From a virus, in IMG/VR virus record IMGVR_UViG_3300042520_003434, positions 1 through 40,800 of that record: a stretch of DNA of 40,800 bases; one strand, written 5' to 3'. Shown in pieces: positions 12,304 through 40,800 of the stretch (the first letter of the stretch is position 1; each line of letters starts with the position of its first letter). The notes below the pieces were generated by a model. It was given only the letters and a program-made list of their open reading frames with translations, ran no database searches and was not told the origin of the DNA. A program made the translations under genes and the position numbers.

Positions 12304-12894
12304 ATGAAGAGTAGGTGCACATATTGTGGATCGTGCGATTACGGAAAAGGTTGTCGTTTTGGTCCACAAAATACTCATTTTCACCTAAACGACGGAAAAA
12401 AATGTGCGTATTGCGGTTCAGGAAGCTTTGGTCGAGGTTGTAAAATCAATCCAACGTCTGATTTGCATATTCACGGAATACACTACAACACAATGTTCAA
12501 AGAATCAATGCAGGAGTTTGTTGAACAAAAACTTTTGCTTCATCAATTAAAAAAAGATTTTGTAGACTTTCCTTGCTTTAAGTTAGGAATAATTGACAAA
12601 CAAGGTAATAAAATAAGAGAGCCGTTATCTGAAAACGAAAAAGCTTCTTACGGGCCATTTACTAAAACTATAATTAAATTAAAAAAATATTTAGGATCTA
12701 AAGTTGATTTAATTGATGCGGAGTTTGCGTTGAGTGAATCTAGCCTTCAAGTAAAGGACATAATTGTTTACAAAAAAATACTTGAATATCAAGACAGAAT
12801 TAACAACCATGTTAATGGGTTGTATAAAATTATAGAAGAGGCCCAACAAGAAGGTTTGTCGTTGGATAGTATTAAAAACTTAATAAAAGCTTGA
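12304..12894 (+). CDS. tandem zinc-ribbon phage protein, 196 aa
   Basis: Two copies of a zinc-binding repeat lie at residues 5-27 and 34-57: CxYCGS-x-(D/F)-YG/FGxGCxx...HxH (first CTYCGSCDYGKGC...HFH, second CAYCGSGSFGRGC...HIH). Each has Cys, Cys, Cys and His ligands. The C-terminal 130 residues are helical; around 95-130 the stretch LGIIDKQGNKIREPLSENEK recalls a domain in structural genes of T4-like cyanophages (from memory). It lies four bases after a late gene, so it is probably a late virion protein. Confidence 0.7.
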   Translation: MKSRCTYCGSCDYGKGCRFGPQNTHFHLNDGKKCAYCGSGSFGRGCKINPTSDLHIHGIHYNTMFKESMQEFVEQKLLLHQLKKDFVDFPCFKLGIIDKQGNKIREPLSENEKASYGPFTKTIIKLKKYLGSKVDLIDAEFALSESSLQVKDIIVYKKILEYQDRINNHVNGLYKIIEEAQQEGLSLDSIKNLIKA

Positions 12895-12918
12895 CATATT
12901 AAAGAAAGCGGTTAAGAT
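12891..12918 (+). promoter_or_regulatory. sigma70-like promoter, N16 spacer, consensus -35
   Basis: TTGACA at 12891-12896 and TAAGAT at 12913-12918, 16 bp apart. ATG at 12926 is 7 nt past the -10 box. It drives the queD-queE operon. Confidence 0.75.
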
Positions 12919-12925
12919 TGTTTGT

Positions 12926-13201
12926 ATGTCAACCATTAATGTAATACTAACAGAAAAAGAAATCGAAACGATTGTCTCCGGATTGTTGTTTTCATGCTCA
13001 GTTAACGTCGTAGCTAACACCGATAAAGATTTTCAGTTAAATCTCCTGGAAGTTGCAACGAAAGTTAAAAGCCATTTGCCGGGTGTTGAGTTAACTAATA
13101 TACAATTTTTAAAAGAAGAAAATTACGAAGATGATATTTCCGAAAAAGTATTGAAAGAATTTGAACATAATATCAAAACAGTGACTTTCGAAGAGGTATA
13201 A
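12926..13201 (+). CDS. hypothetical acidic protein, 91 aa, first gene of queDE operon
   Basis: Begins MSTINVILTEKEIETIVSGL and ends with an acidic stretch. Residues 1-60 look like an alpha/beta fold, but no family was recognised. It is three bases upstream of the QueD-like gene under the same promoter, so a link with 7-deazaguanine synthesis is possible on context only. Confidence 0.65.
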   Translation: MSTINVILTEKEIETIVSGLLFSCSVNVVANTDKDFQLNLLEVATKVKSHLPGVELTNIQFLKEENYEDDISEKVLKEFEHNIKTVTFEEV

Positions 13202-13204
13202 TAT

Positions 13205-13675
13205 ATGGGTGGCAAATATACTTCCACGAAGATTATCGAATTAGGCTCCTGTGCTTTCCGTCAACCAAACGCTGCGTTTGATAGGAACTGCGCAGGAATT
13301 AACTCTAAAAGATGTAGCTTTGTGCACGGATATAAACTTCAAGCAAAGTTTTGGTTTGAGTGTAGCGAATTGGATAACAAAAATTGGGTGGTTGATTTTG
13401 GAGGACTCGGAAATTTAAAATTAGTATTGCAATACCAGTTTGATCATACGCTAACAATAGATAAGACTGATCCTTTGCTTCCTTTGTTCGAGGAATTGCA
13501 CAAACAAGGAGGTTGTGATCTCCGAGTAATGGATGGAGTGGGCATTGAAAAGGTTGCTGAATGGTGTTTTAAAGTAGCTAGTCAGCACATACAAGAAATT
13601 ACAAATAAGCGCTGTTGGGTTTCTAAGGTTGAAGTATGGGAACATAACGCCAATAGTGCAATCTACACAGAATAA
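13205..13675 (+). CDS. queD: QueD-like 6-carboxytetrahydropterin synthase, altered zinc site
   Basis: QueD turns dihydroneopterin triphosphate into 6-carboxy-tetrahydropterin, the substrate of QueE, on the way to preQ0. The 156-aa protein keeps the family outline: RCSFVHGY (Cys37 matches the catalytic Cys, His41 a zinc ligand), WVVDFGGL at 61-68, FDHTL (Asp80-His81) and VEVWEHNA (Glu146). Two of three zinc His are not in place by alignment with E. coli QueD: AAH reads CAF (Phe18) and HGH reads HGY (Tyr43). It is next to queE. Either zinc is bound differently or activity has changed. Confidence 0.78.
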   Translation: MGGKYTSTKIIELGSCAFRQPNAAFDRNCAGINSKRCSFVHGYKLQAKFWFECSELDNKNWVVDFGGLGNLKLVLQYQFDHTLTIDKTDPLLPLFEELHKQGGCDLRVMDGVGIEKVAEWCFKVASQHIQEITNKRCWVSKVEVWEHNANSAIYTE

Positions 13676-13680
13676 CATTT

Positions 13681-14445
13681 ATGAATAACATTGACATAGA
13701 AAAAGAAACCTTATTTTTATCAGACGATAAAGTATTTTACACTTTGGAAGGAGAGGGAGAGTATATAGGCCAACCTTCGGTGTTTATGAGATTATCAATG
13801 TGCAACCTTACCTGTAAAGGATTTGCTTCACCTGATAGTCCAAATGGATGTGATTCTTTTGTTTCGTGGTCTGTAAAAAACAAAATGACTTTTAAAGAAA
13901 TTTTTGATTACATGGAAGATAAAAACTACGTTGAGCATCTTAAAAATCGAGCCATTTTAAAGATTACCGGAGGAGAACCAATCATACAAGAAAAACAATT
14001 GCTCAAGTTTCTTGAGTGTTTTGTTGGCCGTTATAATTTTGTGCCTAGAATAGACTTTGAGACGAACGCTACTCTTACTCCGAGTGAAGAATGGGTCACC
14101 AAATTTAGTGCAACATTCACAACTTCTCCCAAACTGACTACAAACGGAGACCCAGAGGAAAAAACATACAAACCAGAAACGTTGAGGTGGCATGTCGACC
14201 ATAACTCAGGATTTAAATTTGTAATTTCATCCGATCGAGACATAGAAGAAATATGGAGAAAGTACGTTGAAGATTATGAATGTATTAATGTGCCTTTACA
14301 ACGAATTTGGTTTATGCCTTGCTGTGGTTCTAGAAACGAACATATTGAAAAAGCTCAGTCTGTGGCTGAATATGCCAAATCAATGCATGTTAATTTTAGT
14401 CCAAGAATGCATCTGTTAATCTGGGACATGGCTTTAAAGGTTTGA
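13681..14445 (+). CDS. queE: QueE-like 7-carboxy-7-deazaguanine synthase (radical SAM)
   Basis: Radical SAM enzyme that contracts the pterin ring to 7-carboxy-7-deazaguanine, the step after QueD. 254 aa. GEGEYIGQPSVFMRL at 24-38 is the family N-terminus, and the 4Fe-4S cysteines are Cys41, Cys45 and Cys57 (CX3CX11C, not the usual CX3CX2C; QueE variants with other spacing are known). KITGGEP at about 97-103 binds SAM, and the FETNAT stretch follows. T4-like phages use this pathway to place 7-deazaguanines in DNA against restriction. QueC and an insertase are not in the window. Confidence 0.88.
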   Translation: MNNIDIEKETLFLSDDKVFYTLEGEGEYIGQPSVFMRLSMCNLTCKGFASPDSPNGCDSFVSWSVKNKMTFKEIFDYMEDKNYVEHLKNRAILKITGGEPIIQEKQLLKFLECFVGRYNFVPRIDFETNATLTPSEEWVTKFSATFTTSPKLTTNGDPEEKTYKPETLRWHVDHNSGFKFVISSDRDIEEIWRKYVEDYECINVPLQRIWFMPCCGSRNEHIEKAQSVAEYAKSMHVNFSPRMHLLIWDMALKV

Positions 14446-14474: not shown

Positions 14475-15119
14475 ATGAAAATTGCTATATTTGGACCACA
14501 GAATTCCGGAAAATCTACACTAATAGAAGAATTTTTAAAAGAGTGGCCAATGTACAAAAAGCCAGCTCGGACCTATAGAGATATTATTAAAGAGAAAAAC
14601 TTACCTTTAAATAAACAAGGAACAAAGGAATCTCAAAAGGAAATACTAAACGCTTTAGTAGATGAAGCTCAATTTGCAGCAACATCGAATGACACTCACG
14701 TTATATTCGATCGGTGTGTTGTAGATAACATTGCTTATACACTGTGGCATTACGCAAAAGATACGGCTGGGTTTAGTACGGAATTTGTAATTGATTCAAA
14801 GACTATCGCTGCATTTGCCCTCAAACACTTTGATATTCTGTTTTACATACCGGCGCGTAAAGAAATACCAATAATATCTAGAGAAGGCAGAGAAACAGAC
14901 GAGATTTTTAGAGAAGAAATTGACAATATAATCGACTCTTTAGTGGTTTCTTATGAAAAAAACACAGGAGCGTTTTTTCCTTCGGAAGATTGTCCTGCTG
15001 TCATTAGATTAGATGGACCCCCAGACATGAGATTGCCTCAAATACGTTTGTATATCAAACCTAACGGGAATGGGTTTCAAGAACAAGACGGTTCTTTAAT
15101 TGACGTTTCTCAAGTTTAG
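14475..15119 (+). CDS. P-loop NTPase/kinase-like protein (AAA_28/NadR-like)
   Basis: A 214-aa protein. Walker A GPQNSGKST lies at residues 7-15, directly after the first beta strand, as in NadR-like and nucleotide kinase P-loop proteins. THVIFDRCVVDN (about 75-86) has the Asp-Arg Walker B-type motif of kinases, and RKEIPIISREGRETDE (about 130-145) is a lid-like Arg region. Such genes in T4-like phages are often named only as ATPase. A role in nucleotide or cofactor phosphorylation is plausible given the queDE genes upstream, but the substrate is unknown. Confidence 0.75.
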   Translation: MKIAIFGPQNSGKSTLIEEFLKEWPMYKKPARTYRDIIKEKNLPLNKQGTKESQKEILNALVDEAQFAATSNDTHVIFDRCVVDNIAYTLWHYAKDTAGFSTEFVIDSKTIAAFALKHFDILFYIPARKEIPIISREGRETDEIFREEIDNIIDSLVVSYEKNTGAFFPSEDCPAVIRLDGPPDMRLPQIRLYIKPNGNGFQEQDGSLIDVSQV

Positions 15120-34927: not shown

Positions 34928-35194
34928 GTGAGTAAAAATACACATTTAGATGCACTAACTAGCCATGAATTGTATTACACTCTTATTTCGATTTCCCAAG
35001 AAGATTACTATTTACAGGAATTTTTAGAAACCAATTTGATGGAAGATTTGCTATACACGCTGGATGTATACGATATTATTTACATTGCTTCAGATGATCG
35101 AATTTTATTGACATCAAAAGGAGAAAAATTATTACAATATTTATATTTCGATGTTGAAATTGAAAAATCTAATGTTAAATTATATAAACTATGA
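34928..35194 (+). CDS. hypothetical protein, 88 aa, GTG start
   Basis: Begins SKNTHLDALTSHELYYTL after GTG. Acidic, helical first half, then DDRILLTSKGEKLLQYLYFD (about 56-75), which looks like the beta-wing and last helix of a winged-helix domain; that reading is tentative. The stop overlaps the next ATG (ATGA), coupling it to the following gene in the 43-uvsX interval. Confidence 0.6.
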   Translation: MSKNTHLDALTSHELYYTLISISQEDYYLQEFLETNLMEDLLYTLDVYDIIYIASDDRILLTSKGEKLLQYLYFDVEIEKSNVKLYKL

Positions 35195-39998: not shown

Positions 39999-40800
39999 AT
40001 GAGCAATATCAATATTAAATCCATGTTCGATCAAATTAAACAATCACTCTCTTCCGATAAAAAAGATGGAGGAGGTAACGGTCTTTATAAAGAAATTCTT
40101 AAATTTACTGCAGGTAACACATATCAAGTTCGTTTGGTGCCTAATGCGAATTCTCCAAAAGAGACAATCTTCCATTATTACAATCACGGTTGGAATTCAA
40201 ATGCTACAGGAAAATACGTGACAGCTCTATGTCCAACTACCTTTGGTGAAAGTTGTCCTATTGATGCTTACTATTTGAAAACATACCGTACAGGCACTCA
40301 ATCTGAAAAGGATAATTCTCGAGTGTTGTCTCGGAAAGAAGGTTGGATGGTAAACGTATATGTTGTGTCTGATCCAGAAAATCCCGAAAATGAAGGTAAA
40401 GTAAAAATTCTTCGTTATGGCAAAGAGCTAGCTAAAATAATTGAATCTGCTCTTGAAGGAGACGATTCTCAAGAGTTCGGTGTAGAAAAGGTGTTCGACG
40501 TGACGAACGGTTCTAGCTTGAGGATCAAGGTTGAAAATCGTTCAGGAAAGGATCGAGGTGGCAAACAAATGATTACGTATGCAGCTTCGAAGTTTTTGTC
40601 TCCTTCTAAGCTCGATGTTACAGAGGAACAATTAGATTCAATTTATAATGCAGCTCACGACTTGAAAGCTGTAAATAAGCCTACTACTCCAGCCGAAATG
40701 CAACGATTGCTTGACGAGCACTTTTTTAACTTGACGACCGGTTCAGTTGAAGAAGAAACTAATGACGATGAATATTCTTCTATTCGTAATGAAGCACCGA
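39999..40800 (+). CDS. 32: single-stranded DNA-binding protein, T4 gp32-like (3' end outside window)
   Basis: Coats ssDNA in replication and recombination. The first 267 codons are in the window, with no stop. Basic N-terminus with GNGLYKEILKF, then the OB-fold core: FHYYNHGWNSN, YVTALCPTTFGESCPID (about 65-82), GWMVNVYVVSDPENPENEGK (about 110-129, the best-conserved T4 match) and ILRYGKELAKI. T4 has zinc ligands His64, Cys77, Cys87, Cys90; here the His and two Cys are present but the third Cys position reads Asp/Ala. The acidic C-terminal tail begins at EEETNDDE. Confidence 0.93.
   Translation, partial: MSNINIKSMFDQIKQSLSSDKKDGGGNGLYKEILKFTAGNTYQVRLVPNANSPKETIFHYYNHGWNSNATGKYVTALCPTTFGESCPIDAYYLKTYRTGTQSEKDNSRVLSRKEGWMVNVYVVSDPENPENEGKVKILRYGKELAKIIESALEGDDSQEFGVEKVFDVTNGSSLRIKVENRSGKDRGGKQMITYAASKFLSPSKLDVTEEQLDSIYNAAHDLKAVNKPTTPAEMQRLLDEHFFNLTTGSVEEETNDDEYSSIRNEAP

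Follow-up and report, generated by a model that had tools for sequence, protein, structure and literature searches.

Background

The known systems closest to the locus described here are the QueD and QueE enzymes of the 7-deazaguanine pathway. The literature presents QueD as an enzyme that requires zinc (PMC9508795), and the PTPS-I signature is given as CxxxHGH (PMC5041015). The QueD of E. coli (PDB 4ntk/4ntm) shares with the virus protein studied here its fold, the catalytic cysteine, the first histidine of HGH, the Asp-His pair and the glutamate, and it resembles the wider branch of that protein in having FolE, QueE and QueC as neighbours. The closest solved structures by profile and by fold are QueD2 of Acinetobacter baumannii (7v0f) and WS1659 of Wolinella (3jyg); in the printed alignments HGH is intact in both, unlike in our protein. 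Two phage systems are documented in PMC6884629: the QueD of phage 9g complements an E. coli queD deletion, and the DNA of HVTV-1 was found by mass spectrometry to contain dPreQ1 (Table 2 of that article), to which the host could contribute.

The locus and its genes

What we call the window is the whole stretch of DNA that was analysed, the 40,800 bases of the IMG/VR record IMGVR_UViG_3300042520_003434, a linear fragment from an uncultured virus. It encodes a DNA polymerase, UvsX, a DnaB-like helicase, SbcC/SbcD-like proteins and a gp32-like protein, a gene set which we read as the replication set of a T4-like freshwater phage. The features that matter here are the following.

12304..12894, + strand: 196-aa protein with Cys/His-rich N-terminal repeats, phrog_2086 (annotated as of unknown function); upstream neighbour in the lineage of the window
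12926..13201, + strand: orf91, 91-aa protein without family match; upstream of QueD/QueE in 12 of the 22 contigs compared (window included)
13205..13675, + strand: QueD-like PTPS protein of the FRQ/HGY branch, 156 aa (family match, alignment, fold)
13681..14445, + strand: QueE-like radical SAM protein, CX3CX11C, 254 aa, with Cys41, Cys45 and Cys57 (family match, fold)
14475..15119, + strand: thymidylate-kinase-like P-loop protein, directly 3' of QueE; adjoins QueE in most relatives
34928..35194, + strand: 88-aa ORF; in the related contigs G002 and G010 this site holds DpdA, formyltransferase-like, kinase and QueF-like genes in a row
39999..40800, + strand: gp32-like ssDNA-binding protein, truncated where the contig stops; FolE comes next in G002, G010, G013 and G014

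As the preliminary description had it, the QueD and QueE ORFs are adjacent. With orf91 just upstream, the gaps are 3 bp between orf91 and QueD and 5 bp between QueD and QueE, and the kinase-like gene begins about 30 bp downstream of QueE. Profile searches gave no family match for orf91. P-loop kinases like that of 14475..15119 also adjoin DpdA in immuto and in the contigs G001-G003, and the kinase may belong to these deazaguanine modules.

The same description gave the three genes a strong common promoter, and this we could not support. There is one TTGACA-N16-TAAGAT site at 12891-12918, ahead of orf91. The region holds only 8 promoter-like sites, fewer than shuffled sequence does (mean 12.4), and across the 15 aligned rows the -10 hexamer shows no conservation. 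The -35 hexamer shares letters with the stop codon of the preceding gene, hence its conservation is confounded with coding.

Two zinc histidines are replaced in QueD

The QueD-like protein matches phrog_2389 (7.4e-31) and Pfam PTPS (2.6e-14, 53.7 bits against a cut-off of 22.4), which places it in the PTPS family. It falls far under the cut-off of the NCBIfam QueD equivalog TIGR03367 (30.6 bits against 89.25). In the profile alignment with E. coli QueD (PDB 4ntm), Phe18 stands where E. coli has His16 and Tyr43 where it has His33, the last histidine of the motif, so that CxxxHGH becomes CxxxHGY. When 16 cellular PTPS paralogues and the QueD proteins of 9g and HVTV-1 were aligned with it by MAFFT, the register was identical; the first-site histidine is present in 18/18 of these comparison rows and HGH in 16/18, the other two (L158 and L161) having HGA. 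The replacement of two zinc histidines, which had been noticed from the letters of the window, is thus seen both against E. coli QueD and against the PTPS paralogues, and of the three zinc histidines of PTPS-I the window retains one. Cys37, His41, Asp80-His81, Glu115 and Glu146 are kept; we take the catalytic residues of QueD to be the cysteine, the Asp-His pair and the glutamate.

All these residues, Phe18 and Tyr43 included, are invariant in 56/56 distinct QueD sequences of freshwater viruses (74 loci with the window, from which proteins shorter than 130 aa and identical sequences were dropped). CxxxHGH gives way to CxxxHGY in the window, in 56/56 viral rows and in 46/46 rows from cellular genomes. 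This means that Phe18 and Tyr43 reflect neither chance nor a sequencing error. The examined stretch contained no QueD at seven of the 80 viral loci (L039, L043, L045, L049, L051, L065 and L081); for L043 and L049 (records G007 and G016), QueD lies elsewhere on the record. Searches of virus records, which covered 21 of the 80 viral loci, found a single PTPS protein in each of 22 contigs, the window and its 21 relatives, and exactly one in 27/27 of the virus and phage records searched, among them 9g, whose protein is of the HGH type.

We obtained an AlphaFold2 model of the protein from an alignment of 35 viral sequences (pLDDT 88.6, pTM 0.83). PTPS/QueD structures rank first among its structural matches, with Z from 15.3 to 12.5 (15.3 for 3jyg, 14.1 for 7v0f and about 13.4 for E. 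coli QueD, at 2.0 A over 118 residues), and the next fold family, dihydroneopterin aldolase, comes at 8.2.

QueE is a loop-length variant

The QueE-like protein matches phrog_2076 (QueE-like) at 1.4e-41 and 143.6 bits, and reaches at best 56.6 bits with the NCBIfam QueE models, against a cut-off of 260.1. Its three cluster cysteines are present as first noted (Cys41, Cys45 and Cys57, the third after 11 residues) and are invariant in 63/63 distinct homologues, left from 81 loci after proteins under 130 aa and identical sequences were dropped; the full CX3CX11C-Asp pattern occurs in 62/63, the one other row having Tyr for Asp58. Known QueE proteins differ from the window in this spacing, and an alternative is already known from the NCBIfam model queE_Cx14CxxC. 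Among other viral QueE proteins, the residues between CX3C and the third cysteine number 2 in Iggy and 9g, 6 in phiSM, 7 in phiST and immuto and 22 in HVTV-1, while Motura has CX10CX2C. (A regex scan for the QueE cysteines found few cellular QueE proteins, and no count was taken from it.)

The model of QueE (pLDDT 84.0, lower around residues 41-70) finds its best matches among QueE entries, at Z 18.5, 18.2, 17.7 and 15.3, the next match standing at 14.1. The entries concerned are 5tgs (B. subtilis, Z 18.5), 6nhl (E. coli) and 4njg (B. multivorans), which span Z 18.5-15.3. Since the spacing varies among viral QueE proteins and the fold is nearest to QueE, we found here no evidence for a new reaction: as judged from the model, the QueE of the window is ordinary variation, its displaced third cysteine marking a loop-length variant. 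At residues 214-215 the QueE of this virus group also has a conserved Cys-Cys pair (63/63 and 62/63); Ala-Gly or Met-Gly stands there in several QueE proteins of other viruses.

The QueD branch in phages, bacteria and archaea

A tblastn search with the window QueD returned 105 phage records at E<=1e-3 (121 with the QueD of 9g as query), and the residues were inspected in five annotated phages: phiST and phiSM of Cellulophaga, immuto of Flavobacterium, Iggy of Pseudomonas and Motura of Achromobacter. All five have the FRQ...HC-x3-HGY form, at 39-48% identity to the window. They differ from the window and from one another in the QueC, QueF and DpdA genes found beside QueD: QueC and QueF in phiSM and immuto, QueC and DpdA in Iggy, no QueC in phiST.

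Conservation in 56/56 QueD and 63/63 QueE sequences rules out a unique or decayed gene pair. We also considered 9g and HVTV-1 as proven relatives with the same changes, and rejected both, as each has a QueD with HGH. No relative proven to be an ordinary QueD was thus found to carry Phe18 and Tyr43, the complementing protein of 9g being of the HGH type, and the literature searched contained no assay of any member of the branch.

A scan of 84,980 prokaryote species genomes found 46 cellular loci, which is a lower bound because the scan rested on one conserved peptide. Tyr43 is present in 46/46 and Phe18 in 45/46; the exception, L121, is taken up at the end. In a QueD tree of 83 rows, a 100/99 split, recovered in 100% of 200 bootstrap trees, sets apart the 65 members of the branch, L121 among them. 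The separating branch is long, and the data do not fix the root; the long branches of this tree include 9g, HVTV-1, L156, phiSM and L145. Twelve archaeal rows form a single 100/99 group. The earlier suggestion of a divergent phage branch therefore holds as to divergence but not as to phages, as marine group II archaea have the branch on their chromosomes and Bradyrhizobium carries it too. An HGY or zinc-deficient QueD branch was not described in the literature that we searched, whose coverage is incomplete. The branch is old, distinct and widespread and, provisionally, new relative to that literature.

What the cellular genomes say about function

The marine group II set consists of twelve loci, whose record titles name Poseidoniales or euryarchaeal MAGs. 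In 11 of the 12, QueD comes shortly after homologues of FolE, QueE and QueC, in that order; the twelfth (L115) is cut by the contig end on the upstream side. PTPS proteins were counted over the whole genome for 27 of the 46 cellular loci, and TGT and QueC were searched in 18 of those 27 genomes. In the marine group II genomes searched whole, the HGY QueD is the only PTPS protein (8/8), a status which falls short of proof as MAGs may be incomplete; the best QueC match adjoins QueD (8/8), and TGT is found in 7/8, the search giving no match in G042. The surroundings of one such cluster, L120 (FolE, a radical SAM protein, a QueC-SelR fusion and PTPS), are methylmalonyl-CoA mutase and the ribosomal proteins S17e, L31e and S19e, which shows that it is chromosomal and not a provirus. 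The fusion, at L120 4845-5951, joins an archaeal QueC to a SelR (methionine sulfoxide reductase B) domain.

A sole-copy PTPS protein beside FolE, QueE and QueC in archaea is the strongest evidence, from gene content, that the branch makes 6-carboxytetrahydropterin (CPH4), and common ocean archaea seem to rely on it. Further PTPS proteins occur in 14/27 of the cellular genomes searched. Bradyrhizobium (L110, L112, L113, L117 and L126) has its branch QueD beside FolE and QueE, with QueC in L113, together with other PTPS proteins; there, the branch QueD sits in a second gene set.

We consider it likely, on conservation, fold and gene context, that the QueD of the window, with its remodelled or absent zinc site, and QueE are working enzymes for consecutive steps of 7-deazaguanine synthesis. 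QueD would convert dihydroneopterin triphosphate to CPH4, most likely an unchanged reaction, while its usual metal site would be empty or would hold the metal differently. QueE would be the CDG synthase, its longer loop still allowing Cys41, Cys45 and Cys57 to hold the [4Fe-4S] cluster, as conservation and fold suggest. The pathway presumably feeds the DNA modification of the phage itself, as in related phages. The preliminary description had offered, as its second option, a product differing from the textbook one. The changes in QueD and QueE do not require this, because the same form of QueD is the sole PTPS protein beside FolE, QueE and QueC in archaea.

The rest of the pathway and the modified base

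Pfam TGT (PF01702) misses phage DpdA, even annotated ones (0/28), and PHROG families were used instead. Among the window and its 21 relatives, FolE was found in 13/22, QueC in 8/22 and DpdA of the immuto type (phrog_19058) in 10/22; DpdA of the 9g/Iggy type was found in 0/22. A search for queC, folE and dpdA, as had been proposed, revealed in the 40.8-kb fragment neither QueC nor, with the PHROG families, DpdA. As for folE, the window ends inside gp32. In G002, G010, G013 and G014 the first gene identified beyond gp32 is FolE, so that the window probably stops only shortly before its folE.

The DpdA module of immuto, a phage with the same QueD branch, has a gene order in common with G002, G006, G010 and G003. 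The run of DpdA, formyltransferase-like, kinase and QueF-like genes stands before orf126 in G002, G006 and G010, in the order of immuto. In G002 and G010 it directly follows the polymerase gene; at that site the window, unlike immuto, has the 88-aa ORF, as do G013 and G014. With tblastn, several DpdA queries (including phiST gp042, of the phrog_20335 type, and the copy of G001) found none in the whole of G013 and G012, nor in 77,000 of the 78,040 bases of G014. The run was recorded at L164, L165, L166 and L167 in the relatives G002, G003, G006 and G010. The DpdA of G001 (L168 5324-6600) is nearer to phiST gp042 (41%) and adjoins a P-loop ATPase, whereas its sisters are of the immuto type.

These contigs bear on whether the pathway of the lineage stops at CDG, the base in the DNA being then carboxy- or plain 7-deazaguanine instead of a preQ0 derivative. 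This is possible, though on balance we doubt it. QueC is absent from 12/12 contigs with orf91 (window included) and present in 8/10 without it, a contrast (one-sided p about 1.4e-4, calculated by hand and uncorrected for relatedness) drawn between contigs that are all fragments. We grouped them by orf91 and not by clade, as the freshwater QueE tree is poorly resolved and does not sort QueC cleanly. phiST, with FolE, QueD and QueE, likewise does without QueC. However, a QueF-like gene lies beside DpdA in G002, G006 and G010, and QueF acts on preQ0; moreover the QueC of the host could serve. From gene content, the candidates for the end product are a preQ0-derived base made with a host QueC and a base at the CDG level. 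HGY QueD proteins alone predict no new base.

The metal site and the reaction

Within the reading that QueD and QueE are working enzymes, the branch could make CPH4 without zinc, with Tyr43 or a water in the Lewis-acid role, a proposal to which we give somewhat less than an even chance. Tyr43 may then polarise the side chain of the substrate in place of the metal.

It is rather unlikely that the enzyme is an ordinary zinc enzyme with substitute ligands, for instance His36 and His41. His36, next to the catalytic cysteine, is indeed found in 46/46 cellular loci, in the five annotated phages and in 49/56 viral sequences, but it is missing from the other 7/56 viral rows; the window itself has Arg36 and a 9-residue insertion. 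Besides, no third invariant ligand is evident.

Improbable, in our opinion, is the idea that the branch has left CPH4 synthesis for another pterin or deazaguanine step such as CDG decarboxylation, CPH4 being supplied by the host. Cui et al. 2023 reportedly named, along with dDG, dCDG and DpdA3, a predicted CDG decarboxylase, DpdL. Two of the three zinc ligands are gone, and the other PTPS proteins of 14/27 cellular genomes would fit such a change of step. Most phage hosts have the pathway (PMC6884629). With a QueD of the host usually at hand, the phage copy need not make CPH4. This idea is opposed by the marine group II genomes, 8/8 of which have no other PTPS protein, and by the kept catalytic residues. 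The downstream sets also differ between phiSM/immuto, Iggy and phiST, which makes it more likely that the step they share is the early one. Finally, the loss of two metal ligands could suggest a decayed or inactive relic, a view hard to credit for a full-length protein strongly conserved across phages, bacteria and archaea.

If CPH4 is made in the absence of zinc, the branch would let the 7-deazaguanine pathway begin without the metal, a trait perhaps favoured where surface waters are poor in zinc. As the HGH motif is used for the annotation of QueD, such a rule would miss a real group of enzymes, one found in the deazaguanine gene sets of many phages, and in phage work the HGY form is no ground for taking a QueD protein to be inactive. 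It also becomes testable how pterin chemistry proceeds when the usual metal site is missing.

The one cellular locus without Phe18, L121 (6001-6426, Halobacteriovoraceae), keeps the first zinc-site histidine, has Tyr at the other site and branches first; its QueD is a possible intermediate.
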